Shown here: piece after piece, positions 5,175 to 40,155 of the stretch
Numbering within the stretch: position 1 is the stretch's first letter
Layout of the letters: the number at the start of each line of letters is the position of its first letter
Origin: Prevotella sp.
GTDB taxonomy: Bacteria; Bacteroidota; Bacteroidia; Bacteroidales; Bacteroidaceae
DNA length: 47,895 nucleotides
Assembly: GCA_017474845.1 (NCBI GenBank)
Contig: JAFVGS010000014.1
Coordinates: 1-47,895 of the forward strand
Reading direction: 5' to 3'
Translations under genes and position numbers: made by a program
Notes under the pieces: generated by a model
Told to the model about the DNA's origin: nothing
The model's input: only the letters and a program-made list of their open reading frames with translations
Database searches by the model: none

Positions 5175-7799
5175 GTGATTTATCCGAATAACTTCGAACA
5201 TAAGCTCGGTTTCGACGAAATCCGACGGCTGTTAAAGGAGCGTTGCCTCAGCACGTTGGGAAAGGAGAAGGTAGACGAAATAGCCTTCTCCACGGATTGT
5301 CGCGAGATCAACGAATGGCTCGACCAGGTGAGGGAATTCCGGTGCCTGAAAGAGGAGAAGGACGACTTTCCGATGCAGTATTTCTTCGACGTGCGCGAGG
5401 CCGTCACCCGCATCCGGATGGAGAACACGCATCTGGAAGAGGATGAGGTGTGGGATCTGAGGCGCTCGTTGGAGACGATTGCGAACATCGTGAAGTATCT
5501 TTCGAGGAACGAGGAAGGAGAAAATACACCCTACCCTGCCCTGCAAAGGCTGACGGAGGGCGTCGTGACCTTCCCTGCGATGATCAGACGGATAGACTCG
5601 ATACTCGACAAATTCGGAAAAATCAAGGATTCGGCCTCGATGACGCTGGCGGGCATCCGGCATGAGTTGGAGAAGACGCAGGGCAGCATCTCGCGTACAT
5701 TATATACTATCTTGCACGCGGCGCAGAAGGACGGCCTTGTGGATAAGGACGCGGCTCCAGCGATGCGCGACGGGCGACTGGTGATTCCTGTGGCTCCGCA
5801 GGTGAAACGGCGCATCAACGGCATCGTACACGACGAGTCGGCCACTGGTAAGACGGTGTTTATCGAGCCTACCGAGGTGGTAGAGGCGAACAACAAAGTA
5901 CGACAGCTGGAGGCCGAGGAACGGCGTGAGATCATCCGCATCCTCACAGTGTTCACCGACGAGGTGCGTCCCCACGTGAAAGAAATACTTGACTCCTATC
6001 AGTTCTTGGCACAGATAGACCTGATTCAGGCGAAGGCGCACTGGGCTGAACTGACGAAGGCCTTCGAGCCAGCGGTGGAAGACAAGCCGCACATCGACTG
6101 GATACACGCCATACACCCGTTGCTGCAACTCTCGCTGGAGAAGCAGGGGAAGAAGGTGGTGCCGTTGGATATACGATTGGAAGGAGACAAGGAGACAGGA
6201 AGACAGGGAGACAAGACAATAGACAGACAGGGAGACAAGAATATTGGACGGCTGCTGATCATATCGGGTCCGAATGCCGGCGGAAAGTCGGTATGTCTGA
6301 AGACCGTCGGACTGCTGCAATATATGCTGCAATGCGGATTCCCCATCCCCATCGGCGACCGCTCGACGGCAGGCATCTTCGAGCACATCATGATCGACAT
6401 CGGCGACGAACAGAGCATCGAGAACGACCTCTCGACCTATTCGAGCCATCTGATGAACATGAAGCAGATGATGAAGCAGGCCAACGCGCGTACATTATTA
6501 TTAATAGATGAGTTCGGCAGCGGCACGGAGCCCACCATCGGAGGTGCCATCGCAGAGGCCATGCTGAAGCAGTTCTGGCAGCGCGAGACCTTCGGAGTGA
6601 TCACCACCCACTATCAGAACCTGAAGCAGTTTGCCGAGGGACATCCGGGCGTGGTGAACGGTGCGATGCTTTACGACCGCCATGAGATGCAGGCGCTGTT
6701 CCAACTGGCTATCGGTCAGCCCGGCTCCTCATTCGCCATCGAGATCGCCCGCAAGACAGGCATCCCCGAGGAGGTGATCAAAGACGCGAGCGACATCGTT
6801 GGTTCGGAGTATATCCAGAGCGACAAATATCTGCAGGACATCGTGCGCGACAAACGCTATTGGGAGGGCAAGCGGCAGACCATCCACCAGCACGAGAAGT
6901 CGTTGGAGAGCAAAATCAACCGCTACGAAGACGAGCTGAACGAGATAGAGCGCCAGCGCAAGGAGATCCTGCGTAAGGCGAAGGAACAAGCCGAAGAACT
7001 GCTGCGTGAGAGCAACAAGAAGATAGAGAACGCCATCCGTGAGATCCGTGAGGCGCAGGCCGAAAAGGAACGCACACGACTGGCCCGTGAGGAACTGAAC
7101 ACCTTCAAGGAAGAACTTGACACCATCGATACACGCGACAACGATGAGGCCATCGCCCGCAAGATCCGTCAGATTCAGGAGCGCAAGGAGCGTAAGGAGA
7201 AACGGAAGGCAGAGAAGCTTGCGAGGAAAGAGGAAAGTGGAAAGAGGAATGAGAATAGTTTAAGCGCAGATGGTAATCTCTCACCTCTTACCTCTCACCT
7301 CTCACCTCTAAAGCCCGGTGATACCGTGCGTATCAAGGGCCTCACCTCCGTCGGCGAGATTGAAAGCATCAATGGCAGTCAGGCTACGGTCATCTTCGGC
7401 GGCATGCGTACGAAGATGCGTGCCGACCGTCTGGAACGTGCCGAGAAACCCACCACACAGCTCTCGAAGACCGAGGAGCGCAACAACAATATCGCAGGCT
7501 CTTACGGGGTGGTATCGAAAGACACCCGCGAGGTGATAGACAACCGCAAACTGAACTTCAGGCAAGACCTTGACGTGCGCGGCATGAGAGGCGACGAGGC
7601 CATCAACGCCGTCACCTATTTCATCGACGATGCCATCCTCGTAGGCATGTCTCGCGTGAGAATCCTGCATGGCACGGGAACGGGTGTCCTGAGGCAGTTG
7701 ATACGCCAATATCTTGCCACCATTCCCAACGTCACACACTACCGCGATGAGCACGTACAATTTGGCGGCGCAGGCATCACGGTGGTCGATTTAGACTGA
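5175..7799 (+). CDS. mutS2: Endonuclease MutS2 (MutS-Smr ATPase)
   Basis: MutS2 acts on branched or stalled nucleic-acid structures (recombination control, ribosome collisions). The protein has 874 residues from GTG 5175. I prefer this start over an upstream in-frame ATG because it gives the family-like beginning [17 protein letters not shown], and because the upstream frame runs through the promoter. Walker A (SGPNAGGKS) is at about 364-372 and Walker B ([13 protein letters not shown]) at about 443-455. A long charged coiled coil follows, then a C-terminal Smr domain ([21 protein letters not shown]). Two in-frame low-complexity tracts interrupt it: GDK-rich repeats before Walker A (6183-6240) and a foldback element before the Smr domain (7223-7309). 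Confidence 0.95.
6183..6240 (+). repeat. 8-bp purine tandem repeat inside mutS2
   Basis: Seven imperfect 8-bp units (GGAGACAA, GGAGACAG, GAAGACAG, GGAGACAA, GACAATAG, ACAGACAG, GGAGACAA) encode GDK/RQGDK-type residues just ahead of Walker A. The fifth unit, GACAATAG, matches the start of the core seen in the tamL foldback element. It resembles a one-armed member of that family. It stays in frame, so the gene is intact. Confidence 0.7.
7223..7309 (+). repeat. Foldback element, 7-bp units, in frame in mutS2
   Basis: The left arm is built of 7-bp units (GAGGAAA, GAGGAAA, GTGGAAA, GAGGAAT). A core spans 7247-7273 and contains GAATAGTTTAAGCGCAGATG. The right arm has 7-bp pyrimidine units (TCTCACC, TCTTACC, TCTCACC, TCTCACC) largely complementary to the left. 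It encodes a charged Ser-rich linker between the coiled coil and the KOW-like/Smr region. Its core matches that of the element at 13711-13809. Confidence 0.75.
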
Positions 7800-7860
7800 T
7801 TTCGTGTCCTTTTGCTACTCTTGACATAAATCAGTGTACGCACACAATTTTCACAAAAAA

Positions 7861-7878
7861 AGCCAATAAAATTTGGCT
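7861..7878 (+). terminator. Weak hairpin after mutS2
   Basis: AGCCAA (7861-7866) and TTGGCT (7873-7878) form a short stem after an A-run, without a following T-run on the plus strand. It overlaps the -33 box of the next gene, so it may be incidental. Confidence 0.35.
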
Positions 7879-7903
7879 AACTCATTGATTCTCCGTACTT
7901 TTG
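7872..7903 (+). promoter_or_regulatory. Promoter of the lytic transglycosylase gene, with a long leader
   Basis: Exact TTTG (7872-7875), 20 bp, TACTTTTG (7896-7903). The predicted start near 7908 leaves a leader of about 120 nt before ATG 8028. The leader contains two hairpins: ACGACG/CGTCGT (7945-7959), and ACGGC-CTC/GAG-GCCGT (7989-8011). Confidence 0.8.
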
Positions 7904-8027
7904 CAGTCGATTTGAGAGAAATCGCCCGTATCTTCAGGCACAAGACGACGTGACGTCGTATCATTTAAGAAAAGATCTAAAGGATAACACGGCCCTCGCG
8001 ATGAGCGCCGTCTAAAGTATAGAGAAT

Positions 8028-8471: not shown

Positions 8472-8494
8472 GCATTCTATTTTCAGAACTATAC

Positions 8495-8533
8495 AAATCC
8501 GGTTGTCAAGGCAAATGCCTGGCGACCGGATTT
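8495..8533 (+). terminator. Terminator after the transglycosylase gene
   Basis: AAATCCGGT (8495-8503) pairs with ACCGGATTT (8525-8533), with an inner GGC/GCC stem, giving a long hairpin followed by AATTTTG. It separates the transglycosylase from the lemA operon. Confidence 0.8.
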
Positions 8534-8581
8534 AATTTTGTAATAATTCTTAAAAAATATACGACTTTACAACTTTTGGCT

Positions 8582-8589: not shown

Positions 8590-8624
8590 CCGTCAAATTA
8601 TAAACAATTAAACATTATTCGATT

Positions 8625-11939: not shown

Positions 11940-12626
11940 ATGGAGGTCATCTACGAGGACAACCATATTATCATCGTTAACAAACAGAGCGGGGAGATCG
12001 TGCAGGGCGACAAAACTGGCGATCGCCCCCTCTCTGGTATTGTGAAGGACTATATCAAGGAGAAGTACCAGAAACCCGGTGCCGTCTTCTTGGGTGTGGC
12101 CCATCGTTTGGACCGTCCTGTCTCTGGGCTGGTGGTCTTCGCACGCACGTCGAAGGCATTGACCCGGCTGAACAAGATGTTTGCCGATGGCGAGGTGCAT
12201 AAGACGTATTGGGCGATTGTGGGAAAGGGATCAGTAGCCAGGGGTCAGGAGTCAGGAGAGTGGCACACGCTGGAACACTGGCTCGTAAGGAACGAGAAGC
12301 AAAACAAAAGCTACGCCTACGACCACGAGCGTCCCAACGCCAAGAAGGCCATCCTAAAATATCGGGAGATAGGCCGTTCGGACAACTACACCCTCCTTGA
12401 GGTCAACCTGATGACTGGCCGACACCACCAGATCCGCTGCCAGTTGGCAGCGATGGGCTGTCCCATCAAGGGCGACCTGAAATACGGTGCACCACGCTCC
12501 AATCCCGACGGTTCAATCTCTCTGATGGCCCGTCGCGTGGAGTTCATCCATCCCGTCTCCAAAGCCCCCATTGTCGTCGAGGCTCCAGTCCCCAACGACA
12601 CACTTTGGCAGGCTTTGGCTAAATAA
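11940..12626 (+). CDS. RluA-family pseudouridine synthase
   Basis: A 228-residue enzyme that isomerises specific uridines in rRNA or tRNA. The catalytic motif HRLDRPVSGLVVFARTS places the nucleophilic Asp at about residue 58, and GRHHQIRCQLAAMG is the conserved second family motif. There is no N-terminal S4 domain, as in short RluA/RluC/TruC-like members. A short Gly/Gln/Glu insertion (GSVARGQESGEW) is encoded by 7-bp units GGGGTCA, GGAGTCA, GGAGAGT at about 12238-12262, the same unit type as in the tlpA-like gene. The RNA target is not predictable. Confidence 0.92.
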   Translation: MEVIYEDNHIIIVNKQSGEIVQGDKTGDRPLSGIVKDYIKEKYQKPGAVFLGVAHRLDRPVSGLVVFARTSKALTRLNKMFADGEVHKTYWAIVGKGSVARGQESGEWHTLEHWLVRNEKQNKSYAYDHERPNAKKAILKYREIGRSDNYTLLEVNLMTGRHHQIRCQLAAMGCPIKGDLKYGAPRSNPDGSISLMARRVEFIHPVSKAPIVVEAPVPNDTLWQALAK

Positions 12627-13321: not shown

Positions 13322-14377
13322 TTACCAATAGACGGCCAACAGATAACCAGGTATCAGCGCCGCAGCAAGCAGTCCGAAGGCCAAACCCTCGCGACGAGGC
13401 AGCAAGACGTTCGCCAGATAGAGCGTAACTGGCATCGTACAGTTCATCAGGAAGACTCCTGACAGCAACACCACATCATTGTAGCCGCCAAAGACAAAGC
13501 ACAGCACCACGCCAACCAATATCACCGCCAGCGACCTCCAGATGCCCATCCAACGGGCGATCCAGCCGCCGGCCATCTTGCCCAGCATCGCAAAGACAGC
13601 AATCAGCAATATCAATTCCTGAGTCTTCGTTATCCCTCCTGAGAACATCTCGCTGGCAAACGACCGACAGCATACGAAGAGCATCAGCGCCACTACTAAC
13701 AGCCAGATTTGAGGAAAGTGGAAAGTGGAAAGAGGAAAGAGATTACTTTGAAGGGAATCATCTGCCGCAAGACTATTCTCATTCCTCATTCCTCCTTCCT
13801 CATTCCTCGAAAAACCATCACTCTTCAAATAAACAATCGCCACCGCTACAATCGCCAGCAGCAGCCCATAAAGCAACGTCCACGAGCGGCAGACGAACCC
13901 CACGGCCAAGCCCAGCGCACCTGTCGACACAAACACGCCCAAGGCCCGGATGTCGTTGCCCGTCATCACCACCGTCTGCTTGCCACCCCACACATGGAAG
14001 AACGAGTTGCCAGCGCCCAACAGAACAGCCACCAGAACCATCATCCACTCTCCGAGACCGTCCCACATCAGATTCGGCGATACCCTCATCAGCGTCGGTA
14101 TCAGCGAGGCAGAGGCCACAGCCAATGTCAGCAACAGCGACGACACGATCAGCAGCCAGTGGCGCCTCTCCATACGATCGGCCATCATGCCCGTCAGCGG
14201 CTGCGACATAAACGCCAGTACATTATATTTCAGCACTGTGCCCATGCTCACACGGTCACCATATGCTCCGAAACTCTCACCATAAATCCCCGCCAACAGA
14301 AACATGCAACAGATGCACAGCCCGTCCACCAGGAAGTGCTGCACGCTGCTGAGTCCTATCAACGTCGCGTTCTGCAT
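13322..14377 (-). CDS. Major facilitator superfamily transporter
   Basis: From ATG 14377 the protein has 351 residues and about 10-12 hydrophobic helices. The MFS loop signature appears as QPLTGMMADRMERRHWL, equivalent to the GxxxDRxxRR motif between helices 2 and 3. A longer frame exists upstream, but it reads through the -7 box at 14400-14407, so 14377 is preferred. The central cytoplasmic loop between helices 6 and 7 contains an in-frame foldback element (13711-13809), encoding RNEEGGMRNENSLAADDSL. Such loops tolerate insertions, so the gene is likely functional. The substrate is unknown. Confidence 0.82.
   Translation of the reverse strand: MQNATLIGLSSVQHFLVDGLCICCMFLLAGIYGESFGAYGDRVSMGTVLKYNVLAFMSQPLTGMMADRMERRHWLLIVSSLLLTLAVASASLIPTLMRVSPNLMWDGLGEWMMVLVAVLLGAGNSFFHVWGGKQTVVMTGNDIRALGVFVSTGALGLAVGFVCRSWTLLYGLLLAIVAVAIVYLKSDGFSRNEEGGMRNENSLAADDSLQSNLFPLSTFHFPQIWLLVVALMLFVCCRSFASEMFSGGITKTQELILLIAVFAMLGKMAGGWIARWMGIWRSLAVILVGVVLCFVFGGYNDVVLLSGVFLMNCTMPVTLYLANVLLPRREGLAFGLLAAALIPGYLLAVYW
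13711..13809 (-). repeat. Foldback element, 7-bp units, in frame in the MFS gene
   Basis: On the coding strand the left arm has units GGAATGA, GGAAGGA, GGAATGA, GGAATGA. The core (13784-13759) reads GAATGAGAATAGTCTTGCGG followed by CAGATG. The right arm has units CTTTCCT, CTTTCCA, CTTTCCA, CTTTCCT, which pair with the left at about six of seven bases per unit. The core is nearly identical to that of the mutS2 element. Confidence 0.78.
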
Positions 14378-14399
14378 ATCGTCGCTTGTTTTCTCTCTG

Positions 14400-14407
14400 C
14401 AAAAGTA
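14400..14407 (-). promoter_or_regulatory. -7 box of the MFS cassette
   Basis: TACTTTTG on the minus strand, 23 bp before ATG 14377. GTTG at 14431-14428, 20 bp upstream, is a near match to the -33 TTTG. Confidence 0.65.
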
Positions 14408-14445
14408 CGAACTTATTCCCAAACTACCAACATTATTAGCTAAAA

Positions 14446-14495
14446 AACTGTCACCGCTCGGCATTTTTGCCGCTTTCAAAGAAAGAATTGTCACA
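14446..14495 (+). repeat. 50-bp flanking repeat, copy 2
   Basis: It aligns with 12628-12675 over its whole length with only a few differences. It contains the hairpins CGGCA/TGCCG and CTTTC/GAAAG, and TGTCAC at both ends. It sits between the MFS promoter and the divergent promoter at 14510-14541. Confidence 0.8.
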
Positions 14496-14509
14496 AACAC
14501 CCCCTAAAC

Positions 14510-20479: not shown

Positions 20480-21374
20480 CCTGCTGTTCAGTGTATCTGC
20501 GCATTGTGCAGATACGCTGAGCATCGTCCTCACTGGCGATATCCTGCTCGACCGCGGGGTGCGCCAGACAATCGAAAGACACGGAGTCGGCCATCTGTTC
20601 TCGGATGGCGTCGACTCCGTCTTTCAGTCAGCCCAGGTGGTCGTGGGTAATCTTGAGTGTCCGGCCACAAAGATCAAGTCGCCTGCGTTCAAGCGCTTCA
20701 TCTTCAGGGGCGAACCCGAATGGCTCGACACATTAAGGCAGCACGGCATCACCCACCTAAATCTCGCCAACAACCACTCCATCGACCAAGGGCGCGAGGG
20801 ACTGATGGACACACGACGGAACATCATCGCAGCAGGGATGGTACCCATCGGAGCAGGAGCGAACATGCAAGAGGCCTCAGAACCCGTACTGCTGGCCGAC
20901 CAGCCACGAAAGGTGTGGCTCGTGCCCTCCTTGCGCCTCGCCCTTGAGAACTACGCCTACCTGACGGACAAGCCCTGCGTGAGTCAGGAGTCGATGGACT
21001 CGCTGCTCTCACATGTGTTCCATCTCCGCCAGCAGGACTCCACAGCTGTCATCATCGTCAGCCTCCACTGGGGGCAGGAGCATTCGCTGCAGCCCGTTCT
21101 CCGCCAGCGACATGACGCCCACATGCTCGTGTTGGCAGGTGCCGACGTGCTCGTGTGTCACCATACCCACACTCTCCAGACCATCGAGGACTACGGTGGT
21201 CACAAGATCTATTACAGCGTGGGCAACTTCATCTTCGACCAACACAAACCCCTGAACAGCGAGGCCTGTATGGTGCGTCTGAAAGTGAGCCAGGACAGTC
21301 TCGAAGTGGAGACCATCCCAGTGGAAATACGCCATTGCGTACCTTATATACAAGGTAAAAAAGTAAAAAGGTAA
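20448..21374 (+). CDS. CapA/PgsA-family metallophosphoesterase-like protein
   Basis: A 308-residue exported protein with signal SIVLAVSLLFSVSAHCA. Calcineurin-like/CapA motifs appear in order: LTGDILLDRGV, VVGNLECP, LNLANNHSIDQG, VSLHWGQEH, DVLVCHHTHTLQ and YYSVGNFIFD, which together supply the Asp, Asn and His metal ligands of the two-metal site. CapA proteins act in capsule or poly-gamma-glutamate assembly, but many homologues have unknown roles. The start overlaps the DUF3160 gene by 32 bp. Its last codons and stop (QGKKVKR then TAA) lie inside an 8-bp tandem repeat, so the C-terminus may vary between strains. Confidence 0.88.
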   Translation: MRSSSIVLAVSLLFSVSAHCADTLSIVLTGDILLDRGVRQTIERHGVGHLFSDGVDSVFQSAQVVVGNLECPATKIKSPAFKRFIFRGEPEWLDTLRQHGITHLNLANNHSIDQGREGLMDTRRNIIAAGMVPIGAGANMQEASEPVLLADQPRKVWLVPSLRLALENYAYLTDKPCVSQESMDSLLSHVFHLRQQDSTAVIIVSLHWGQEHSLQPVLRQRHDAHMLVLAGADVLVCHHTHTLQTIEDYGGHKIYYSVGNFIFDQHKPLNSEACMVRLKVSQDSLEVETIPVEIRHCVPYIQGKKVKR

Positions 21375-21412
21375 AAGGGTAAAAAAGTAAAAAAGTAAAA
21401 AAGTAAAAAGTT
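21354..21412 (+). repeat. 8-bp (GGTAAAAA/AGTAAAAA) tandem repeat across the capA-like stop codon
   Basis: About seven 8-bp units run from the end of the capA-like coding region into the spacer before tamB. They provide the last residues (KKVKR) and the stop codon. A shorter relative is at 11119-11158. Confidence 0.8.
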
Positions 21413-24400: not shown

Positions 24401-26168
24401 GAACGACACTCACGCCATCGAAGCCCGTCTGCTGCTCGACGACGAGGAGTTCGGACTGCTGAGCGGCACCTACCAGAAACAGGGCGAGGGACTCATCGAC
24501 GCCACCTTCGACATGACACGCATGCCCCTCTCACTCGTCAACGGCTTCGTGCCCGACCAGATTGTGGGCCTCGACGGCTATGCCGAAGGCAGCATGACCG
24601 TCCGAGGCACCGTCCGCCGGCCCGACATCAACGGTGAGCTGTTCGTCGACTCCGCCCATCTCATCAGCATCCCCTACGGCATCCGCATGCGCTTCGACAA
24701 CGACCCCGTCCGCATCGTCGGCAGCAAGCTGCTCCTGGAGAACTTCGGACTCTACGCCTACAACGACGAGCCTCTGAACATGATGGGCAACATCGACTTC
24801 TCCGACCTCGAAAATATCCAGATGGACCTGCGCATGCGGGCCCGCAACCTGCTGCTCATCAATGCCAAGCAGGAGCCCAAGTCCATCGCCTGGGGCAAGG
24901 CCTTCGTCAACTTCTTTGCCAGGATGCAGGGACCGCTCGACATGCTGAACATGCGTGGGCGGCTCGACGTGCTCGGAACCACAGACCTCACCTATATGCT
25001 GCTCGACTCACCCCTCTCGGCCGACAACCGTCTCGACGAGCTGGTGCAGTTCACCGACTTCAATGACTCCATCCTGACCGTCGTCACGCGTCCTAAGCCC
25101 ACGGGCATCAAGGCCGACCTCACCATCGGTGTGTCAGAAGGCGCCCACTTCGTCTGCGACCTCAATCCGGAGCAGACCAACTATGTCGACCTGACGGGAG
25201 GCGGCGACCTGCGCTTGAAATACGACTATGAGGGCATCAACCTAACGGGCCGCTACACGCTCTCCAACGGTGAGATGAAATACTCACTGCCCGTCATCCC
25301 GCTGAAGACCTTCAGCATCAAGGAAGGCAGCTATGTGGAGTTCACGGGCGACCCGATGAATCCCCGCCTGAACATTACCGCCACAGAGCGCACCAAGGCC
25401 ACCGTCACCGACGGCTCCGGCATCGGCCGCAGCGTACTCTTCGACTGTGGCGTCATCATCACCAAGACACTTAACGACATGGGACTGCAATTCATCATCG
25501 AGGCCCCGGAGGACAACAACGTCAACACAGAACTCTCCGCGATGTCGACGGAAGAGCGCAGCAAGCTTGCCGTCGCAATGATCTCCACAGGCATGTATCT
25601 CGCCGACGGAAATACCGGCAGCTTCTCCATGAACAACGCGCTCAGCTCGTTCCTCCAGAGCGAGATCAACAACATCGCCGGCTCGGCCTTGAAGACTCTC
25701 GACCTGAGTGTGGGCATCGACAACTCCACCGACGCCACAGGTACCACGCATACCGACTACTCCTTCAAGTTCGCCAAGCGGTTCCTCGACAACCGCCTGC
25801 GCATCGAGATCGGCGGCCTGGTATCCTCGGGCGACAATGCGGCAATGGGACAGAAACAGTCGTTCTTCGACAATGTGTCGATGGAGTACCGTCTGAACCC
25901 GAACGCCACGCAGAACTTGAAGATGTTCTACAAGCAGAATGTCTACGACTGGCTCGAGGGTTACACTAGCGTATACGGCATCGGTTTCGTCTGGCGCCGC
26001 AAGCTCGACAACTTCTGGGACATCTTCCAGTTCTGGAAAAAGGAACAACAGCCGACGTACCCCACCCGTCGCCCATCAGAGCAACAGCCCTCAGACCGTC
26101 AACCGATGACGCAGCGCGACAGTATACAAGTTGACAGTATCAAAGTAGTAGGAAATGAAAGAAGATAA
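21483..26168 (+). CDS. tamB: TamB-like translocation/assembly module protein (AsmA-like, DUF490)
   Basis: A 1561-residue protein with one N-terminal anchor (WIGIAVLTPFLLFIILAALIYL) and a very long beta-rich body. Alternating polar/hydrophobic strands and repeated D-x-D/N patterns are typical of the bridge-like AsmA/TamB fold. The C-terminal TamB/DUF490 domain (about 1180-1500) includes RYTLSNGEMKYSLPVIPLK and VEFTGDPMNPRLNITATERT. Such proteins span the periplasm and move lipid or assist outer-membrane protein assembly. Its end overlaps the TamA-like gene by 14 bp, the conserved pairing. A Gln/Pro-rich C-terminal tail (QQPTYPTRRPSEQQPSDRQP) is unusual. Confidence 0.92.
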   Translation: MRKGLKWIGIAVLTPFLLFIILAALIYLPPVQNWVAQKVVSIASEKTGMEILVGHVNLEFPLDLGINDFRVLHPNDSVTDVTDTIADVRHLTVNVRLLPLLKKKVVIEELSFRQTKINTNGFIDDLRIKGQFQELWLASKGIDLDKETVLVNGARLSGAQIDLNLTDTAAVDTTKRNVTWVIDADSLSIRHSALTLHLPGDTLDFNLALGRAVAREVTADLATSVYKVRSLDISDGQMDYEPIGLSDVTLGVDSFRYAPTGLSFFVRQTELTEKSGLKITELTGGVNLDSTYNHIRLPLMTLKTPDSNIMVDADMDFNAFDEQRPGIFKMRLFAQLGKQDIFTVAGKLPQKFTEHFPNKPLIIRGSADGNMSHLVLTGLDIDLATALHANVKGTLDNVRNLSQLKANLQVEAETKQLNFMTALIDPKMSNTYRIPDGITLNGKLTADGTKFATDLTLNEAEGSIKLAGNARIPLDDKGSFESDRITYDADIDIRNLNLHHFLPKDSIRSLTADIKASGYGTDFFSPKSRLTADASIERLQYGSWDLDNLMASVTLSDGRGEVNIVGHNRILEGCIGAELLLNTHKIEGTVSGDFAKADLYQMRLVDSPLTIGTNGSLKVSSDLKDTHYVSGRLNDVFVKDGQKTYTPGDVGILLKTNPDTTYARVQSGDFILKLDAMGGYQKLIDQTTALTDSVIGKIKEKVIDQSAIMALLPTMSLHLESKRDNPIAHMLRTTGADFKELTLDLTTSPETGINGQGHLFSLNYDSILIDTIRLSLIQKGERLTYQGQVCNNRKNPQFVFNALVDGHVHEHGALAGVRYFDEKGRMGVRIGATAEMEDDGMRFRLLPDRPTVGYKEFNLNKDNYIFLANNRKIQAKVDLIADDETGMKIYTEHQDSTMLQDLTVSLHRIDLGELTAVMPYLPRITGKLDGDYHILMDQDEHISMASDMGVTAMTYEGAPIGNISTELVYLQNENDTHAIEARLLLDDEEFGLLSGTYQKQGEGLIDATFDMTRMPLSLVNGFVPDQIVGLDGYAEGSMTVRGTVRRPDINGELFVDSAHLISIPYGIRMRFDNDPVRIVGSKLLLENFGLYAYNDEPLNMMGNIDFSDLENIQMDLRMRARNLLLINAKQEPKSIAWGKAFVNFFARMQGPLDMLNMRGRLDVLGTTDLTYMLLDSPLSADNRLDELVQFTDFNDSILTVVTRPKPTGIKADLTIGVSEGAHFVCDLNPEQTNYVDLTGGGDLRLKYDYEGINLTGRYTLSNGEMKYSLPVIPLKTFSIKEGSYVEFTGDPMNPRLNITATERTKATVTDGSGIGRSVLFDCGVIITKTLNDMGLQFIIEAPEDNNVNTELSAMSTEERSKLAVAMISTGMYLADGNTGSFSMNNALSSFLQSEINNIAGSALKTLDLSVGIDNSTDATGTTHTDYSFKFAKRFLDNRLRIEIGGLVSSGDNAAMGQKQSFFDNVSMEYRLNPNATQNLKMFYKQNVYDWLEGYTSVYGIGFVWRRKLDNFWDIFQFWKKEQQPTYPTRRPSEQQPSDRQPMTQRDSIQVDSIKVVGNERR

Positions 26169-28668
26169 AAGAAGATATAGGGAGATAAAGGAAGATAGAA
26201 GACAAATGATCTGGGGGCTCAAACAGTCTGCAGCAAAACTATTGTCCTCTATCTCCCTCTGTCTCCTTCTATCTTCCTCTATCTTCTTCGCTTCCTGTTC
26301 CATGACCAAGAACATCCCTGAGGACGACCAGCTTTTCACGGGTCTTACCGGCATCACCTACGTGGATGAACCTAAGGACGACACCTTCGAAGACCACCTC
26401 GACGCCACCAAGGAAGAAGTGGAGGCTGCCCTGGCCACAGCCCCCAACGGCTCGCTCTTCGGCAGCAGCTATTACCACAGTCCCTGGTCCTGGCGGCTGT
26501 GGATCTATAACAAATACGCCAACAAAGACTCTAAGTTCGCCCGCTGGATGAAGAAGTCGTTCGGCCGTCCGCCGGTGCTGATGAGTAAGGTGAACCCCGC
26601 CCTGCGCGCTTCCGTCGCCCAGTCTGTGCTCAAAAATAACGGTTATTTCCGCAGTGAGGTCACCTATGAGGAGGTGCCGCAGAAGAACCCCAAGAAATGC
26701 AAGATCGGCTACACCATCCGTCTCGACACCCTCTTCACCCTCGACAGCGTGGCCTACGTCAACTTCCCCGACTCCCTCCAAGCGCTCATCGACTCCACCC
26801 GCAGCGAGTCGCTCGTCAAGTCGGAGGATGCGTTCAGCGTCTCCGCCCTCGACAAGGAGCGCAGCCGTATCACCAACCTCTTCCGCAACAACGGCTACTA
26901 TTATTACAGCAACAACTTCGCCTCCTATCTCGCCGACACCTTCCAAGTGGCCGGACGGGCACAGCTCCGTTTCCAGCTGGCCAACGAACTGCCGCCCGAG
27001 GGGCTCAGCAAATGGTATATCGGCAATATCGCCGTACAGTTCCGCAAGAGCATGCGTGAGCAGCTCACCGACAGCGTCAAGCGCCGTCACCTCACCATTC
27101 TCTATCACGGCAAGAAACCGCCTATCCGTCCCAACGTCATCCTGCAAAACCTCAGGCTACGTCCGCGACAGGAATTCAGTTACGACAACTACCTCGAGTC
27201 GGCCAGTAAGATCAATGCCACAGGCGTCTTCTCAACGACCGACTTCCAGTTCACGCCCCGGGCGGGTACCGATACGCTCGACGTCAACCTGAACTGCGTG
27301 TTCGACAAGCCCTACGACTTCTACTTCGAGGCCAACGCCATCGGTCGCACCAGCGAGCGCTTCGGTCCGGAGGCGAAGATCGGTTTCACCCGTCGCAACC
27401 TCTTCCGTGGCGGTGAGAAACTCGACATCAACCTGCACGGCTCCTACGAGTGGCAGCATGGCGGCGGTACCAACTCCAATACCTACCAGTATGGTGCCGA
27501 CGTCACCATTGAGTTCCCCCGCATCATCGCGCCGTTCTATAACAGCAATCGTGTGCGCCGCGACAAGAACGGCCGTCGCATCCCCCGCCGCCGGCCCTAT
27601 GCCGCCCCCATCACCTATGCGAAGGCATCTACCGACTTCGTACGGCGTCCCGACTATTACAATATGCATGTCGTCTCGGGCGAGTGGACCTACCGCTGGC
27701 AGCCCACCGCCACCAGCCGGCATGAGTTCTCCCCCCTGACGGTGAAGTATCAGTTCAAGAGCAACACCACGGCGAAATACGATTCCGTCACCAAAGAGAA
27801 TCCCTACATACGTATCACGATGGGCGACTACCTCATCCCCACGATGCGCTACACCTATACCTACACCAGTCCCGTCACGCTGCGCAACCCCATTCGTTGG
27901 GAGACGAGCGTCGAGGAGAGCGGTAACATTGTCTCGCTCATCGACCTCGCCCGCGGCTATGGCTACGATGAGAAAATGAAGAAGTGGTTCAAGGCCCCCT
28001 ATGCCCAGTTTATCCGCGTAGAGACCGACTACACGAAGAGCTGGTCGACGGGTATGGCCTCGAAACTTGTAGCACATCTCAACGCCGGCGTCATATACAG
28101 TTACGGCAACTGCGTGGACGCCCCCGTCACCGAACTTTTCTACGTGGGTGGCGCCAACAGCATCCGCGCCTTCTCCATGCGCGAGATCGGCCCCGGACGA
28201 CTGGAAGATTTTAAGAACAAGAACAGACAATATAACTACGCCATCCGCAACGGCGACCTCAAACTGGTGGCCAACCTCGAATACCGCACGCCCCTCTTCG
28301 GCAACCTCGAAGGCGCCATCTTCCTCGATGCAGGCAACATATGGCGACTGAATAGCGACGAGCTCATTTCCATAGATGAATATACCGGAGGCTATGATGA
28401 GGATGGTAATTACATCTCGCCGGAAGAGGAGTATGAAAGCGAAAAGATCCTCTTCGACAAGATGCAGTTCAAGTTCTCCAAATTCTTCGACGATCTGGCG
28501 TTGGGCACAGGCATCGGCCTGCGCTACAACCTCGGTTTCCTCGTCATCCGTCTCGACTGGGGTATCGCCCTCCATTTCCCCTACGACACCGGTAAGTCCG
28601 GCTACTTCAACATCCCCAGCTTCAAGAAAGCCAACACCATCCATTTCGCCATCGGCTACCCGTTCTAA
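26155..28668 (+). CDS. tamL: TamA-like outer-membrane lipoprotein (TamL, BamA/Omp85 superfamily)
   Basis: An 837-residue Omp85-family protein. A lipoprotein signal ends SIFFASC (Cys48), then POTRA-like domains (about 60-380), then a C-terminal 16-strand barrel (about 400-837) with LFYVGGANSIRAF (VRGY/F-like lid motif), LEYRTPLFG and a final aromatic (IGYPF). Lipid-anchored TamA relatives called TamL are known in Bacteroidota and work with TamB. ATG 26155 overlaps tamB. ATG 26206 (MIWGLKQSAAK) would give a more normal signal peptide and cannot be excluded. The N-terminus is encoded by a foldback repeat (26161-26289), and the hydrophobic signal segment is the repeat's pyrimidine arm. Confidence 0.92.
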   Translation: MKEDKRRYREIKEDRRQMIWGLKQSAAKLLSSISLCLLLSSSIFFASCSMTKNIPEDDQLFTGLTGITYVDEPKDDTFEDHLDATKEEVEAALATAPNGSLFGSSYYHSPWSWRLWIYNKYANKDSKFARWMKKSFGRPPVLMSKVNPALRASVAQSVLKNNGYFRSEVTYEEVPQKNPKKCKIGYTIRLDTLFTLDSVAYVNFPDSLQALIDSTRSESLVKSEDAFSVSALDKERSRITNLFRNNGYYYYSNNFASYLADTFQVAGRAQLRFQLANELPPEGLSKWYIGNIAVQFRKSMREQLTDSVKRRHLTILYHGKKPPIRPNVILQNLRLRPRQEFSYDNYLESASKINATGVFSTTDFQFTPRAGTDTLDVNLNCVFDKPYDFYFEANAIGRTSERFGPEAKIGFTRRNLFRGGEKLDINLHGSYEWQHGGGTNSNTYQYGADVTIEFPRIIAPFYNSNRVRRDKNGRRIPRRRPYAAPITYAKASTDFVRRPDYYNMHVVSGEWTYRWQPTATSRHEFSPLTVKYQFKSNTTAKYDSVTKENPYIRITMGDYLIPTMRYTYTYTSPVTLRNPIRWETSVEESGNIVSLIDLARGYGYDEKMKKWFKAPYAQFIRVETDYTKSWSTGMASKLVAHLNAGVIYSYGNCVDAPVTELFYVGGANSIRAFSMREIGPGRLEDFKNKNRQYNYAIRNGDLKLVANLEYRTPLFGNLEGAIFLDAGNIWRLNSDELISIDEYTGGYDEDGNYISPEEEYESEKILFDKMQFKFSKFFDDLALGTGIGLRYNLGFLVIRLDWGIALHFPYDTGKSGYFNIPSFKKANTIHFAIGYPF
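26161..26289 (+). repeat. Foldback element, 10-bp units, encoding the tamL N-terminus
   Basis: The left arm has 10-bp units GAAGATAAAA, GAAGATATAG, GGAGATAAAG, GAAGATAGAA. The right arm (26241-26289), read on the minus strand, gives GAAGATAGAG, GAAGATAGAA, GGAGACAGAG, GGAGATAGAG. The arms are about 80 percent complementary. The minus-strand core, about 26246-26224, reads GGACAATAGTTTTGCTGCAG, matching the mutS2 and MFS elements at ATAGTYTTGCNGCAGA. Confidence 0.78.
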
Positions 28669-28681
28669 GACATAGTATTAA

Positions 28682-28787
28682 TTTAAAGACATAGTAACAT
28701 ATTAACAGATTATTGTAGACAGAAGAACTCTATAAATAAAAAAAACTGTTAATATGTTACTATGTCTTTAAAATGTTCTTCTGTCTA
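28682..28787. repeat. Interleaved inverted repeats A-B-A'-B' between tamL and the nucleotidyltransferase gene
   Basis: A perfect 27-bp inverted repeat (28682-28708 with 28746-28772) is interleaved with a perfect 13-bp one (28716-28728 with 28775-28787). The B arm lies inside loop A and its partner outside, so an RNA could form an H-type pseudoknot rather than a simple hairpin. The A arm contains 8-bp units ACATAGTA, ACATATTA, ACAGATTA. The rest of 28669-28841 holds only the promoter at 28800-28807. Confidence 0.85.
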
Positions 28788-28799
28788 AGAAAAAAGTTG

Positions 28800-32883: not shown

Positions 32884-32900
32884 AATAACAAGGATCAAAT

Positions 32901-32945
32901 AAAAAGTAAAGAATCACGGGGAGTCCCGTGATTCTTTGCTTTTTA
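32901..32945. terminator. Bidirectional terminator between glmM and the SulP gene
   Basis: A stem of AAAGAATCACGGG and CCCGTGATTCTTT around GAGT, extended by flanking A and T runs on both sides. It suits both converging genes. Confidence 0.9.
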
Positions 32946-34649
32946 TGCTGTTATTTGTCGGGCTCGTTCGAGGGCCTCGTTGATGTGGGAACAGATGTTC
33001 TCCTCGCCGAGCATCGCGTCGAAGCCGGCCTTGTGGAGCACGGACTGCACTTTCTCGTTCACACCGGAGAGCACTACTTGTATGCCCTCACCCTGCGACA
33101 TGAGACAGAGGTTGGTGAGGTTGTGGATACCCGTGGAATCGACGAACGGCACCTTACGCATTCGGATGATGCGGACTCGGGGCTTCTGCCGCTGATGGCG
33201 CAGCACACCCATGATCTCCTCGAAACGGTTACCTGCGCCGAAGAAGTAGGGACCGTTGATCTCATACACTTCCACGCCCTCAGGAATGGTGAGGTGCTCA
33301 AGGTTGCCCATCTGGAAGTCGCTGTCTTCCTCCTCGGGGTTAATCTCGTCGCTGATGACCTTGACGTCGGTGGTCTCAGCCATACGGCGCATGAAGAGCA
33401 GACAGGCGCAGATCAAACCCACCTCGATGGCGATGGTGAGGTCGAAGATGACCGTCAGCAGGAAGGTGACCCAAAGCACGATGACATCGCTCTTCGGGTT
33501 CTTCAGGATGGAAATGAAGCTTCGCCAGCCGCTCATGTTATAGCTTACGATGACGAGCACACCGGCCAGACAGGCCATGGGGATATACTGCGCCAGCGGC
33601 ATGAGGAAGAGGAAGATGAGCAGCAGCACGGCGGCATGGACGATACCGGCAACGGGCGTGCGGCCGCCGTTGTTGATGTTTGTCATCGTACGGGCGATGG
33701 CTCCAGTGGCCGGTATGCCGCCGAAAATGGGCGACGCCAGGTTGGCCAGTCCCTGGGCGATAAGTTCTGTGTTGGAGCAATGGCGGTCGCCGATGACACC
33801 GTCGGCCACAGTAGCCGAGAGCAACGACTCGATGGCACCAAGGATGGCGATGGTGATGGCGGGCGAGACGAGACCCTTGATGACGTCCCACGTCAGGTCG
33901 GGCACCTGTGCCTGCGGCAGTGTGGCAGAGATGGAGAAACGGTCGCCGATGGTCTCGATGGTAGTGACACCGGCATACTGTTTCAGCAAGGCGGCGGTGA
34001 CGGTCATCAGCACGATGGCAATCAGCGAGCCGGGCAGCTTACCCAGCGCCGTGCCCTTCGTCACTTTTGGCCAAAGGGCGATGACGGCGACGGAGCCCAA
34101 GCCAACAAGGGCACTCCAACGCTCGATGGTAGGCACGCAGTCGATGTATGCTATCCACTTCTCGATAAAGTCGGAAGGGACAATGGCCATCGACAGGCCG
34201 AGCAGATCTTTGATCTGCGTGGTGAAGATGGTCAGGGCGATACCGCTGGTGAAACCCACGACGATGGGGTACGGGATGTACTTGATGATCGTGCCCAGAT
34301 GCAGTACGCCGAACATGATGAGGAAGACGCCCGCCATAAGCGTGGCAATGGTCAGACCCTCGAAGCCGTACTGCTGGATGATGCCATATATAATAATAAT
34401 GAACGCGCCCGTAGGTCCACCGATCTGTACCTTCGAGCCTCCGAAGACGGAGATGATGAGACCGGCTACGATGGCGGTGATGATACCCTTCTCGGGCGTC
34501 ACGCCAGAGGCGATACCGAAGGCGATGGCCAATGGGAGTGCGACGATGCCCACGATGATGCCGGCCAGCAGGTCGGTCGTCAGCTGCTGGCGGTTGTAAT
34601 GCTTAAGTGCCGAGAACAGTTTCGGCTTAAATGTCAATGAACTTGTCAT
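32943..34649 (-). CDS. SulP/SLC26 family anion transporter with STAS domain
   Basis: A 568-residue inner-membrane transporter for sulfate, bicarbonate or another anion. About 10-14 helices fill residues 20-440. Family features include DLLAGIIVGIVALPLAIAFG near the start and FGGSKVQIGGPTGAFIIIIY. The C-terminal cytoplasmic STAS domain (about 440-560) contains VPFVDSTGIHNLTNLC, with the conserved Asp-Ser. I choose ATG 34649 over an upstream one (34682) because the -7 box at 34687-34680 places transcription start between them. The anion is not deducible. Confidence 0.92.
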   Translation of the reverse strand: MTSSLTFKPKLFSALKHYNRQQLTTDLLAGIIVGIVALPLAIAFGIASGVTPEKGIITAIVAGLIISVFGGSKVQIGGPTGAFIIIIYGIIQQYGFEGLTIATLMAGVFLIMFGVLHLGTIIKYIPYPIVVGFTSGIALTIFTTQIKDLLGLSMAIVPSDFIEKWIAYIDCVPTIERWSALVGLGSVAVIALWPKVTKGTALGKLPGSLIAIVLMTVTAALLKQYAGVTTIETIGDRFSISATLPQAQVPDLTWDVIKGLVSPAITIAILGAIESLLSATVADGVIGDRHCSNTELIAQGLANLASPIFGGIPATGAIARTMTNINNGGRTPVAGIVHAAVLLLIFLFLMPLAQYIPMACLAGVLVIVSYNMSGWRSFISILKNPKSDVIVLWVTFLLTVIFDLTIAIEVGLICACLLFMRRMAETTDVKVISDEINPEEEDSDFQMGNLEHLTIPEGVEVYEINGPYFFGAGNRFEEIMGVLRHQRQKPRVRIIRMRKVPFVDSTGIHNLTNLCLMSQGEGIQVVLSGVNEKVQSVLHKAGFDAMLGEENICSHINEALERARQITA

Positions 34650-36402: not shown

Positions 36403-36939
36403 ATGAAGAAATATATCCTAAGCATCATGCTGGCCGTAGTTGCCTTGAGCAGCTGCGCGGGTAACAAGGAACAGGAGTCAGCAGACAGGAGTCAGGAGAA
36501 CACTCCTGCCACAGACATTTCTACTGACTCCTCCTCTGATCTTGCCCCCGACTTCACGCTGAACGACCTCAGCGGCAAGCCCCTCACCCTGTCGAGCCTG
36601 CGCGGCAAATACGTCATACTCGACTTCTGGGGATCATGGTGCGTCTGGTGCATCAAGGGCATCCCGCAGATGAAGGAGTACTATCAGAAGTACGCCGGCA
36701 AGTTCGAGATTCTCGGCATCGACTGCAACGACACGGAAGAGAAATGGAAAGCTGCTGTGGAGAAGCACGAACTGCCCTGGCTGCACGTGTATAACCCACG
36801 CGACTCGAAAGTGCTCGAACAGTACGAGATTCAGGGCTTCCCCACGAAGATCATCGTCGGTCCCGACGGGAAGATCGTGAAGACCATCATCGGCGAAGAT
36901 CCTGCCTTCTACAGATTCCTCGACGAACTATTCAAATAA
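36403..36939 (+). CDS. TlpA-like thioredoxin-fold lipoprotein
   Basis: A 178-residue periplasmic thiol-disulfide protein. The SPII signal ends VVALSSC (Cys18). A low-complexity linker follows (about 22-46), then a thioredoxin domain with APDFTLNDLSGKPLTLSSL, the active site WGSWCVWCIKG (CxxC), and the cis-Pro region IQGFPTKIIVGPDGK. It would reduce or resolve disulfides, or pass electrons, at the cell envelope. The linker is encoded by a foldback repeat (36468-36539) that lies between the lipid anchor and the folded domain, where extra length does no harm. Confidence 0.9.
   Translation: MKKYILSIMLAVVALSSCAGNKEQESADRSQENTPATDISTDSSSDLAPDFTLNDLSGKPLTLSSLRGKYVILDFWGSWCVWCIKGIPQMKEYYQKYAGKFEILGIDCNDTEEKWKAAVEKHELPWLHVYNPRDSKVLEQYEIQGFPTKIIVGPDGKIVKTIIGEDPAFYRFLDELFK
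36468..36539 (+). repeat. Foldback element, 7-bp units, in frame in the tlpA-like gene
   Basis: Units GGAGTCA, GCAGACA, GGAGTCA, GGAGAAC form the left arm. The core reads GAACACTCCTGCCACAGAC, a diverged match to the GAATAGTYTTGC-GCAGA core. The right arm (TACTGAC, TCCTCCT) contains CTGACTCCT, complementary to AGGAGTCAG on the left. Confidence 0.6.
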
Positions 36940-36944
36940 AAATG

Positions 36945-36970
36945 AAGCCCCGCTCAGTTGAACGGGGCTT
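36945..36970. terminator. Bidirectional terminator after the tlpA-like gene
   Basis: AAGCCCCG (36945-36952) and CGGGGCTT (36963-36970), with T-rich flanks in both directions, lie between converging genes. Confidence 0.88.
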
Positions 36971-36974
36971 TATT

Positions 36975-37754: not shown

Positions 37755-37758
37755 CTTT

Positions 37759-38424: not shown

Positions 38425-38438
38425 ATTTTATTAATTTT

Positions 38439-39224
38439 CTATTTTCCTAAAATTTTCTGTATGCTGCGCAGACGGGGCTTGATGCGGTTGCGGCGCAGGC
38501 TGTCGTTGGTGAGGGCCGAGCCGATGCAGTACTTCGAGAAGCCATGAGGATGGATGTGCAGGTCGCAGAGCTTGCCCAGGATGGGCGAAGGCTGGTTACC
38601 GTCGCGTTTGAGCTCGATGATGACGAGGTCGCCCATCGCGCGTTGCTCGCCTGTAGCGATGTTGTTGAAACGCAGGTGGGTGTCGATGGTGAGACGCTCG
38701 GTCTTGGCCTTGTTCACCAGCGTGATGCGGTCGAAGCGGTTCTCAATCTGTTCGGTGAGACGCTCGGGGTCATAATTCAGGTAGGTACGCAGGAACTCGT
38801 CGTAGTTGACGAAGTTCTCATCCTGACGATGAAACTCAATGTCGTGCTGCGGGTGGAGGGCGTCGAACTGTTCCATAGCGACACGCTTCTTCTTCGTGCG
38901 GCCGTGGTTGTTCTTCGTCTTAACCTCAAGGAAACTCAGCCCGGCACTGACGTATGAACGGATACGGATCTTCTGACGGCTCAAGTGCCCCACCTGGTGA
39001 CGGTTGTACATCGCACAGTCGGGGGTGTCGAAGTAGAGCGTATAGTATGGCGAGATACGCAGGCCGTCGGTCTCCTGCACGAAGTAGTCGTCGCGAGCCA
39101 TGTCCAAGAGTCGCCGGAGCACAGGCTCCGTCGTCACGAACTTGGTGTCGATGCGGTTCATCAGCCGGATGTCCTTCATCTGGTCCAAGGTGATGGGCTC
39201 AAAATGGTTCAGAATCTCAGTCAT
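38439..39224 (-). CDS. VTC-domain polyphosphate polymerase-like protein
   Basis: A 261-residue cytoplasmic protein made of one VTC tunnel domain. Basic motifs that would line the tunnel and hold the phosphate chain are visible: MNRIDTKFVT, RQKIRIRSY, FLEVKTKNNHGRTKKKRV and VIIELKRDG, with Glu residues for metal. The end GFSKYCIGSALTN is also family-like. In eukaryotes the domain makes polyphosphate from ATP; bacterial homologues are less studied. It is first of a leftward operon with DUF4956 and DUF2490. The promoter lacks the TTGTAAC repeats seen at 4527-4584. Confidence 0.9.
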   Translation of the reverse strand: MTEILNHFEPITLDQMKDIRLMNRIDTKFVTTEPVLRRLLDMARDDYFVQETDGLRISPYYTLYFDTPDCAMYNRHQVGHLSRQKIRIRSYVSAGLSFLEVKTKNNHGRTKKKRVAMEQFDALHPQHDIEFHRQDENFVNYDEFLRTYLNYDPERLTEQIENRFDRITLVNKAKTERLTIDTHLRFNNIATGEQRAMGDLVIIELKRDGNQPSPILGKLCDLHIHPHGFSKYCIGSALTNDSLRRNRIKPRLRSIQKILGK

Positions 39225-39243
39225 ATTCGTTCTTTTGTCGGTG

Positions 39244-39251
39244 CAAAATTA
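39244..39251 (-). promoter_or_regulatory. -7 box of the VTC operon
   Basis: TAATTTTG on the minus strand, 19 bp before ATG 39224. The 77-bp gap after exonuclease III contains no other feature. Confidence 0.6.
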
Positions 39252-39301
39252 AAGTGTTATCCTGTGCCTGCAAAATCTTTTCAGCGAATCGGGCGATTTG
39301 T

Positions 39302-40051
39302 TCAACGAAGGTCCAGTTCGATGGGACAATGGTCGCTGCCGAGGATGTCGCTGTGGATCTTGGCGTCGTCGAGGCGCTCACGCAGACGGTCGGAGATGAC
39401 GAAGTAGTCGATGCGCCAGCCCACGTTCTTCTGACGGGCCAGGAAACGGTACGACCACCACGAATACTTCACCTCCTCAGGGTACTTGTAACGGAAGCTG
39501 TCCGTAAAGCCGCAGGCCAGCAGGTTGCTGAACTTCTCACGCTCCTCATCCGTAAAGCCGGCATTCATGTGGTTCGTCTTTGGATTCTTGAGGTCGATCT
39601 CCTCGTGGGCCACGTTCAAGTCACCGCAGAGGATGACGGGCTTCTGCTGGTCGAGGCGCTTGAGATACTTGCGGAAGGCATCCTCCCACGACATGCGGTA
39701 CTCCAGTCGCTTCAGGCCGTCCTGGGAGTTCGGCGTGTAACAGCAGACGAGGAAGAAGTCAGCCATCTCGAGGGTGACGACACGCCCCTCATGGTCGTGC
39801 AGGTCGATCCCGATGCCATAGGTCACGCTCAGGGGATGATGCTTCGTGAAGACGGCAGTACCGGAATAGCCTTTCTTCTCGGCATAGTTCCAATAACTCT
39901 CGTAACCCTCGAACTGCAGATCGAGCTGTCCTGCCTGCATCTTCGTCTCCTGAAGACAGAAGAAATCGGCATCCAACTGACGGAACACCTCACTGAAGCC
40001 CTTACCCTCACAGGCGCGCAGACCGTTCACATTCCAACTGACAAACTTCAT
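39302..40051 (-). CDS. xth: Exodeoxyribonuclease III / AP endonuclease
   Basis: A 249-residue base-excision repair nuclease of the ExoIII family. Motifs in order are MKFVSWNVNGLRA (start), FFCLQETKMQ (metal Glu), LCGDLNVAHEEIDL (Asp/Asn), WRIDYFVIS and LGSDHCPIEL (catalytic His). Length matches the family. The ATG at 40051 coincides with the conserved beginning; the longer frame up to 40144 crosses the promoter (40079-40072) and is rejected. It would cut abasic sites and resect 3' ends. It is divergent from the SpoIIE phosphatase gene. Confidence 0.95.
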   Translation of the reverse strand: MKFVSWNVNGLRACEGKGFSEVFRQLDADFFCLQETKMQAGQLDLQFEGYESYWNYAEKKGYSGTAVFTKHHPLSVTYGIGIDLHDHEGRVVTLEMADFFLVCCYTPNSQDGLKRLEYRMSWEDAFRKYLKRLDQQKPVILCGDLNVAHEEIDLKNPKTNHMNAGFTDEEREKFSNLLACGFTDSFRYKYPEEVKYSWWSYRFLARQKNVGWRIDYFVISDRLRERLDDAKIHSDILGSDHCPIELDLR

Positions 40052-40071
40052 CGTTAATCTAATTTTGGCTG

Positions 40072-40079
40072 CAAAGGTA
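40072..40079 (-). promoter_or_regulatory. -7 box of the exonuclease III gene
   Basis: TACCTTTG on the minus strand, 20 bp before ATG 40051. Confidence 0.65.
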
Positions 40080-40088
40080 CAAAAAAAA

Positions 40089-40155
40089 TCACAGATTACA
40101 CATATTATAAATAAATAATTGTATTTTTTCTGCAGAATCTGCACAATCTGCAGTT
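40089..40155. repeat. Imperfect foldback with 9-bp units between xth and the SpoIIE gene
   Basis: The right part has three 9-bp units TCTGCAGAA, TCTGCACAA, TCTGCAGTT (40129-40155). The left part reads CACAGATTA, CACATATTA, resembling the reverse complement units (GCAGATTNN). It ends nine bases before the SpoIIE -7 box. The arrangement resembles the other foldback elements, with a fourth unit length. Confidence 0.55.

Follow-up and report, generated by a model that had tools for sequence, protein, structure and literature searches.

The 47,895-nucleotide stretch of Prevotella sp. analysed here (contig JAFVGS010000014.1 of assembly GCA_017474845.1, in the following "the window") carries four short foldbacks in coding sequence, at 7223, 13711, 26161 and 36468. 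In each of them a purine arm of tandem words and a pyrimidine arm enclose a common core, AATAGTYYTGCNGCAGA. We propose, with a probability of roughly 0.77, that the underlying element is a foldback insertion element with modular arms that resembles miniature inverted-repeat transposable elements (MITEs). The window tracts would then be copies, some of them decayed, of a small and non-autonomous element. A complete element would consist of the terminal inverted repeat (TIR) TTCAASTTTCGCAWG, a purine arm of words of 7 to 11 bp, the core, the complementary word arm and a second TIR. The core would start with AATAGTYYTG and, in most genomes seen, would read AATAGTYYTGCNGCAGA..GTAWT. On insertion about 7–9 bp of the target would be duplicated, and a transposase acting in trans presumably recognises the terminal repeats. 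The arms may represent tolerated filler that changes by slippage in unit number, by arm-arm recombination (one inverted copy) and by conversion to another word type. Insertions into genes would survive if the frame is kept and the site is a linker or a signal peptide, and genic copies of this kind could outlast the decay of their ends as part of a protein.

The family is mobile in relatives of this genome. Dispersed copies with matching ends and target duplications occur in two of them, one copy is inserted into another, differing arms lie between the same ends, and orthologous sites are found empty. The two relatives are G428, a metagenome-assembled genome (MAG), and G354, which is of the same genus as the window and consists of one contig, and the complete elements of both are bounded by the TIR given above; terminal ends are also present in G092. 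The G428 elements start with TTCAACTTTCGCAAG, finish with CATGCGAAACTTG and are flanked by the direct repeats ATACTTTA, TTAACATAA, TTATTTAA, TTAGTTTTA, ATCATATCA and ATTACATTA. At locus L411 of this genome a copy is nested in the right end of an older copy, with TATATCTA duplicated. Two arm types share the same ends in G428, namely 10-bp GAAGATAGAAGG words around the core AATAGTTTTGCTGCAGA and GGGAGTTAAT words around the core AATAGACCTGCTGTAAC. The core of these TIR-bounded 10-bp-word copies matches that of the window copy at 26161 in 17 out of 17 positions.

In G354 we counted 26 exact end matches compared to none for the reversed control. Its elements measure approximately 160–280 bp between the ends, and the same ends bound either word arms, made of AGGAGTTAA or GAAGTTAA words, or unrelated hairpin arms. 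A direct repeat of at least 7 bp was found at 19 of the 24 distinct elements (7/7 in G428, 12/16 in G354 and 0/1 in G092), two of the original 26 rows having been dropped as elements already counted and read from the other end. Random sites (7200, taken from the window's own genome) gave such repeats in 1.0%, a value that is somewhat below the true null, as that genome is richer in G+C than the insertion flanks. Three further G354 copies regarded by eye showed a 7-bp repeat, a 6-bp repeat and no repeat, respectively.

The initial annotation of the window had described four coding copies, kept in frame, with units of 7, 7, 10 and 7 bp. This description holds: Tandem Repeats Finder and an inverted-repeat scan recover these units, and each copy sits within a single open frame. 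As single-stranded DNA the copies at 7223, 13711, 26161 and 36468 fold better than their dinucleotide shuffles (z = −2.46, −2.64, −3.98 and −2.85), with 2, 0, 0 and 2 out of 200 shuffles folding as well. The copies at 7223 and 36468, the arms of which are imperfect, were missed by our own inverted-repeat finder. The core, said to be recognisable across the copies, is so: AATAGTTTTGCNGCAGA has three window matches with up to three mismatches compared to 0.13 expected, and none of 100 shuffles reached three, so that the core is better than in shuffled sequence. It was also said to be weakest in the 36468 copy, whose core AACACTCCTGCCACAGA is indeed absent from these matches and lies, by eye, three mismatches away from AATAGTCCTGCCGCAGA.

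The first copy lies on the plus strand within MutS2 and comprises a purine arm of 7-bp GAGGAAA words (7223..7253, Tandem Repeats Finder array), the core AATAGTTTAAGCGCAGA (7254..7270, core-pattern match with three mismatches) and a pyrimidine arm of 7-bp CTCACCT words (7278..7309, tandem array). In the orthologue of genome G328 (L193) the purine arm is kept but diverged, and the other arm is made of CTCAACT words. The second copy, read on the minus strand, lies in an MFS transporter gene (13322-14500), where a purine arm of 7-bp GAGGAAT words (13778..13808) and a pyrimidine arm of CTTTCCT words (13711..13741), both found as tandem arrays, enclose the core AATAGTCTTGCGGCAGA (13761..13777, core-pattern match). 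The third copy, also on the minus strand, is the signal peptide of an Omp85-type protein itself (element at 26155). Its purine arm of 10-bp AAGATAGAGG words (26246..26289, with the tandem array at 26246-26284) corresponds on the plus strand to the hydrophobic part of the signal peptide up to the lipobox, and its pyrimidine arm (26158..26202, tandem array) to the charged N terminus; the core AATAGTTTTGCTGCAGA lies between them (26227..26243, core-pattern match). The fourth copy, on the plus strand, is found in the linker region of a thioredoxin-like protein whose start resembles that of a lipoprotein. It possesses a purine arm of 7-bp CAGGAGT words (36471..36498, tandem array 36472-36498), the weak core (36499..36515) and a short pyrimidine arm (36519..36532, from the inverted-repeat scan and folding), and its G328 orthologue carries a degenerate AGACAGTAG tract of similar length. 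Elements have entered proteins as linkers, and even as a signal peptide.

Orthologous loci with and without the element, a comparison proposed by the initial annotation, could be set side by side at a site termed E3, in a host gene that we take to be DHFR-like from reading its sequence. An element occupies this site in the own genome and in the MAG locus L044. In G328 the word type found there is a different one, and the site is empty in G411, G340, G398 and G396. At site E2 the own genome has a foldback with GAGGAAA words, the right arm being replaced by another palindrome. The same site carries GAGGAGT/GTGGAGT words on both arms in G328 and GAGGTGA/GAGGTAA words on both arms in G411, another palindrome in G398 and no such tract in G396. 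The core variant AAATGATNTGCNACAGA, which is site-specific, is common to G328 and G411. Searched with up to one mismatch in eight genomes, this pattern gave 14 matches, of which three are foldbacks: E2 in G328, E2 in G411 and, with a mismatch, the own site E1. E2 is the best evidence for a change of words on the two arms of an element whose site stays fixed.

In the Omp85 gene, the signal peptide is a 10-bp foldback in the own genome and G340, an 8-bp foldback in G398 and G411 and a 7-bp array in G407; that of G375, G409 and G360 contains a G+C-rich palindrome, and others have ordinary sequence. Loop 1 of MutS2 measures 18 nt in 8 out of 30 loci, the rest containing 7-bp words of differing kinds, a palindrome or other sequence, and both MutS2 loops keep a multiple of three in all 30. 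The tracts in MutS2, Omp85, E2 and E3 thus differ between orthologues, other than would be seen for ordinary conserved protein sequence. In the window, loop 1 holds an array of GGAGACA-type words (6183..6240, plus strand; tandem array and orthologue comparison), and a pseudouridine synthase gene holds AGGAGTC words (12226..12262, plus strand; orthologue comparison). Both had been regarded as single arms (6183-6240 and 12238-12262). They are word arrays that lack the core, and in relatives these places contain different words, an extended array or sequence that is not related; at the second site G411 carries a longer array of such words and G340 a GTGAAAA-type core remnant.

Among the matches listed from a contig scan, members were found in at least Prevotella and Prevotellaceae MAGs, a Bacteroidaceae MAG and the isolate Hoylesella loescheii. 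Scored by core plus arm complementarity, 18 of the 40 matches listed reach 15–29, and the other 22 stay at or below 13. We further examined 50 matches from the scan of relatives (30 loci supplied with a scan of 301 family genomes, and 20 regions chosen by hand from the list), of which six have arm-complementarity scores of 16–42 and 44 have scores of 11 or less. The combination of core and complementary arms separates members from chance. The core alone was rejected as a trustworthy motif: it occurs mainly as single matches among those listed, and 44 of the 50 lack an arm complementarity above 11. One must keep in mind that L044:4363, the E2 orthologue and a true member with a replaced right arm, scores only 9, and that the arm score therefore misses copies with a replaced arm. 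In G274 the same core GATAGTTTTGCTGCAGA lies between wholly different arms in three copies, a fourth being similar (L175-L178); these arms are G+C-rich and REP-like and stand in place of the purine words.

Within the own genome a sample of 701,159 bases was analysed, about a third of the genome, with 11,002 bases masked. It contains 174 tandem arrays of period 5–13, of which those with period 7 are the most frequent (49 of 174); two dinucleotide shuffles gave 12 and 3 arrays. Foldbacks with arms of at least 18 number 80 in the sample and five in each shuffle; five of the 80 and the five per shuffle are most likely artefacts of five fully masked contigs. With 11.4 foldbacks per 100 kb, compared to 12.0 in G354 and 9.5 in G178 (other genus), foldback density is not peculiar to the own genome. 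Tandem arrays are denser there, with 24.8 compared to 15.5 (G354) and 6.5 (G178). The core consensus is resembled by 11 of the 74 looped foldbacks at p ≤ 0.015, where approximately one would be expected by chance; this test is partly circular, as the consensus was drawn from members that include some of those 11. The foldback at 40070 is one of the 11. The words of the core elements are 7 (GAGGAAA), 9 (GGAGTTCAA), 10 (AAGATAGAGG) or 11 bp (GAAGTTAAAGG) long, and a subfamily with GTGAAAA words has the related core ATTTGCTRCYGCC; the remaining foldbacks, that at 28682 among them, are built of different words. Open frames of 150 amino acids or longer contain twelve of the 15 core elements listed, including all eight with 7-bp words, and the three with 11-bp words lie outside such frames. 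The foldback family with a shared core and copy- or subfamily-specific units is real, as had been suggested, and recurs in the own genome and in other Prevotella-type genomes.

The annotation had supposed that one arm may be copied from the other by foldback synthesis, keeping the arms of each copy matched. For all 15 copies, which represent several word classes, the arms match better within (0.893) than between copies (0.836, p = 0.001). Among the 11 copies of the GAGGAAA class complementarity is 0.910 within compared to 0.912 between copies (p = 0.58), and without register shifts 0.832 compared to 0.864. Arm words are matched by class and not by fine variants, and routine arm-from-arm copying was rejected as not supported at this fine scale, within-copy complementarity in the GAGGAAA class being no better than between-copy complementarity. 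Unlike words on the two arms were found in the G328 MutS2 copy, L277 and L283. L431 has an interior that is inverted with respect to its ends (26 forward compared to 185 reverse; the other 11 elements give 65–226 compared to 23–29), which is what recombination between inverted arms would do. The loci L435 and L423 of G354 differ by a whole unit in one arm, as slippage would produce.

Two of these results, the concerted words at E2 and the inverted interior of L431, show arms changing together or interacting. It is conceivable, although on balance doubtful, that a resident element keeps its core while a new word is written into its two arms in place. An activity such as hairpin-templated conversion from other elements, or word-by-word synthesis, would then swap both arms together. 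If this is true, ends and core are inherited, and the arms are a fast-changing, exchangeable payload that writes new linkers and signal peptides.

Beside the low random null mentioned above, several observations weigh against the proposed insertion element. The window copies possess neither terminal repeats nor target duplications. Allowing for one mismatch, the left-type terminal repeat was found at none of the copies of the window or of the third of the own genome that was sampled, and an exact match to the right-end 13-mer is lacking from the entire own genome. A direct repeat of at least 7 bp at the arm ends was found in none of 97 foldbacks of the own-genome sample, a set that covers all word families and includes up to five runs of N, and target duplications in the own genome were rejected on these grounds. 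The search for target duplications suggested by the initial annotation was therefore successful in G428 and G354 only, and mobility is shown only in relatives. Exact ends are missing from six of the seven same-genus genomes searched, with G382 (L248) having one end with one mismatch. The core of G354 has diverged, GACAAYAGTCTT being shared and TGCNGCAGA not, and the tie between TIR elements and window copies therefore rests mainly on G428. Finally, the only transposase gene seen with the ends is of the Y1 class, none is tied to the ends with confidence, and this class is not known to duplicate its target. We infer that the ends of the window copies have decayed, because core and words are shared with the complete elements.

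The lack of terminal repeats and target duplications in the sampled own genome would also be in agreement with an origin in place. Slippage would expand words at tolerant sites, template switching across the hairpin would add the complementary arm, and the core would be a recurrent by-product or an old seed, with no transposition involved. The many word arrays and foldbacks without a core in the own genome, and the finding that one loop holds different words in different species, point the same way. However, a 17-nt core at dispersed loci and in other species is not expected from slippage, near-identical copies occur at different loci of one genome (L028/L041/L068, and L030/L031 of G428), and fine-scale arm variants are not common to both arms of a copy. 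We therefore consider this origin unlikely.

A further alternative is that a Y1 (RAYT-type) transposase mobilises the elements in the form of single-stranded hairpins, a mechanism suggested for REP/REPIN and TIRtron elements. A Y1 transposase gene with GCCCTGAAAGGGC hairpins on its flanks lies in two G354 copies (PF01797; E = 3.3e-20, obtained with one of the two genes), and PF01797 matches occur in all ten genomes searched (24 matches). In the own genome a RAYT gene (L461) is flanked by 70-bp GGGACGGTTC palindromes that are dispersed in that genome. On the other hand, the RAYT gene is confined to these two longer copies. Their arms are hairpins instead of words, and no target duplication is seen at the one copy whose two ends can be recognised. 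Of 11 PF01797 loci examined only the G354 one has these ends, and none has the core, within two mismatches. Direct repeats of 7–9 bp are not a known outcome of Y1 transposition and fit a DDE-type enzyme better; no DDE transposase was seen beside the ends inspected, in a search that was not complete. Movement by a Y1 enzyme thus seems improbable. Finally, it is very hard to believe that the tracts are nothing but low-complexity stretches of protein, ordinary linkers and signal peptides under selection for their amino-acid composition: coding copies do lie in frame, in linkers or a signal peptide, and the tract at 45091 is of that kind, but the same words and core occur outside genes (the 3 of 15 core elements in no long frame), none of the word lengths 7, 10 and 11 bp is divisible by three, sites are empty in relatives, and the existence of a nucleotide-level family already contradicts it.

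A separate observation concerns dispersed 70-bp palindromes of the own genome (L254:1091-1160, GGGACGGTTCTTTTGT), which also occur inside a protein gene, both there and in G328; the Y1 transposase gene L461 has this sequence on its flanks.

Drosophila FB itself belongs with the foldback-type transposons, and long inverted arms of short tandem units, as in FB, are found here as well. Cyanobacterial heptanucleotide short tandemly repeated repetitive sequences are dispersed 7-bp word arrays like those of this family; as far as we know they are not foldbacks with a core or terminal repeats. Galileo, a foldback-type element of Drosophila, shares long inverted repeats, internal tandem repeats in some subfamilies and a variable repeat number; most copies have 7-bp target duplications, and its transposase is of the P superfamily (PMC3573991). 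It differs in being eukaryotic and of kilobase scale, and the sections of that paper available to us describe no exchange of word types around a fixed core.

BrickBuilt of Porphyromonas gingivalis is a comparable Bacteroidales MITE with an interior tandem short repeat between inverted-repeat ends, described as having trapped a direct repeat (PMC4596501). According to the parts of the description consulted, BrickBuilt has one 23-bp repeat type in one orientation with leader and tail, forms no foldback, is always intergenic and has duplications of varying length. The Prevotella elements have words of 7–11 bp in inverted arms, several word types on common ends and many copies in genes. Rickettsia palindromic elements are small palindromes inserted in frame in many protein genes (PMC10969869, PMC3733652), which is in agreement with the in-frame position of most own-genome core elements. 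They carry a CGTC tag at one end (PMC3733652), which is absent from the ends found here, and the portions of these papers that were seen do not describe arms of tandem words. REP/REPIN and TIRtron elements, with their RAYT/TIRYT transposases, are similar in being dispersed palindromes. Their RAYT genes are flanked by long TIRs, and moderately abundant TIR families have been described (PMC3733652, in part); in the present family two G354 copies, with hairpin arms, carry a RAYT. The Prevotella elements differ by their 7–9 bp duplications, word arms and core, and by the lack of a GTAG tag at the palindrome foot, their ends reading TTCAASTTTCGC.. and ..GCGAAASTT... An explanation by triplex repeats (PMC4666352, as far as accessible) led nowhere. 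Among the open-licence PMC papers listed by our searches no description of this element family was found.

If the proposed reading is right, a common group of gut bacteria has a foldback family in which the mobility signals at the ends, the core and the arms each evolve as a module of their own. The elements would then be a measurable source of new protein sequence, because the same loop or signal peptide (MutS2, Omp85-type, DHFR-like) holds different elements across species. They could also offer a natural system in which to ask how the pairing of long inverted arms survives changes in sequence, as orthologous copies with a common core but different words are directly comparable.

Three further tracts had been listed as relatives of the four copies, and none was retained as a member of the core family. 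The repeat at 28682-28787 is a very strong foldback (z = −7.80 against dinucleotide shuffles), but it has no core (p = 0.45 in the core-consensus similarity test) and belongs to another repeat family, whose words (ACATAGTAACATATTAACAG and similar) are found again in other foldbacks that do not match the core significantly. This long interleaved foldback of ACATAGTAACATATTAACAG / AGACAGAAGAAC words (28663-28791) lies directly upstream of a promoter-like TACCTTTGC, and the same words are found in foldbacks of G328 and G340 (L394, L396, L398). Foldbacks with CACGAATTA, CACAGATTT and GTGAATAAT words (L258:14618-14693, L268:14627-14719 and L281:17457-17581) are dispersed in the own genome, also without a significant core match.

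The repeat at 40089-40155 folds weakly (z = −1.75). Its similarity to the core consensus (p < 0.005) speaks against its exclusion; we put this match down to a CTGCAGAATC stretch that belongs to the family of AATCTGTG/CACAGATT words, which are also seen in related tracts of G328 (L399, L400), and the foldback at 40070 was rejected as a member on this basis. The tract (40070-40173) is flanked by two outward-facing TACnTTTGCA-like promoter boxes. The supposed single arm at 45091-45120 is coding sequence with a 12-nt expansion: three out of three orthologues have ordinary Lys/Gly-rich coding sequence there, 12 nt shorter. Ahead of a large gene, at 21355-21409, lies an array of 8-bp GTAAAAAG words with many short matches in sister genomes, and the 8-bp foldbacks that form the Omp85 signal peptide in G398 and G411 are related to it. 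At 32899-32946, immediately behind one open reading frame, a nearly perfect 22-bp inverted repeat that encloses a loop of 4 nt is probably a transcription terminator.

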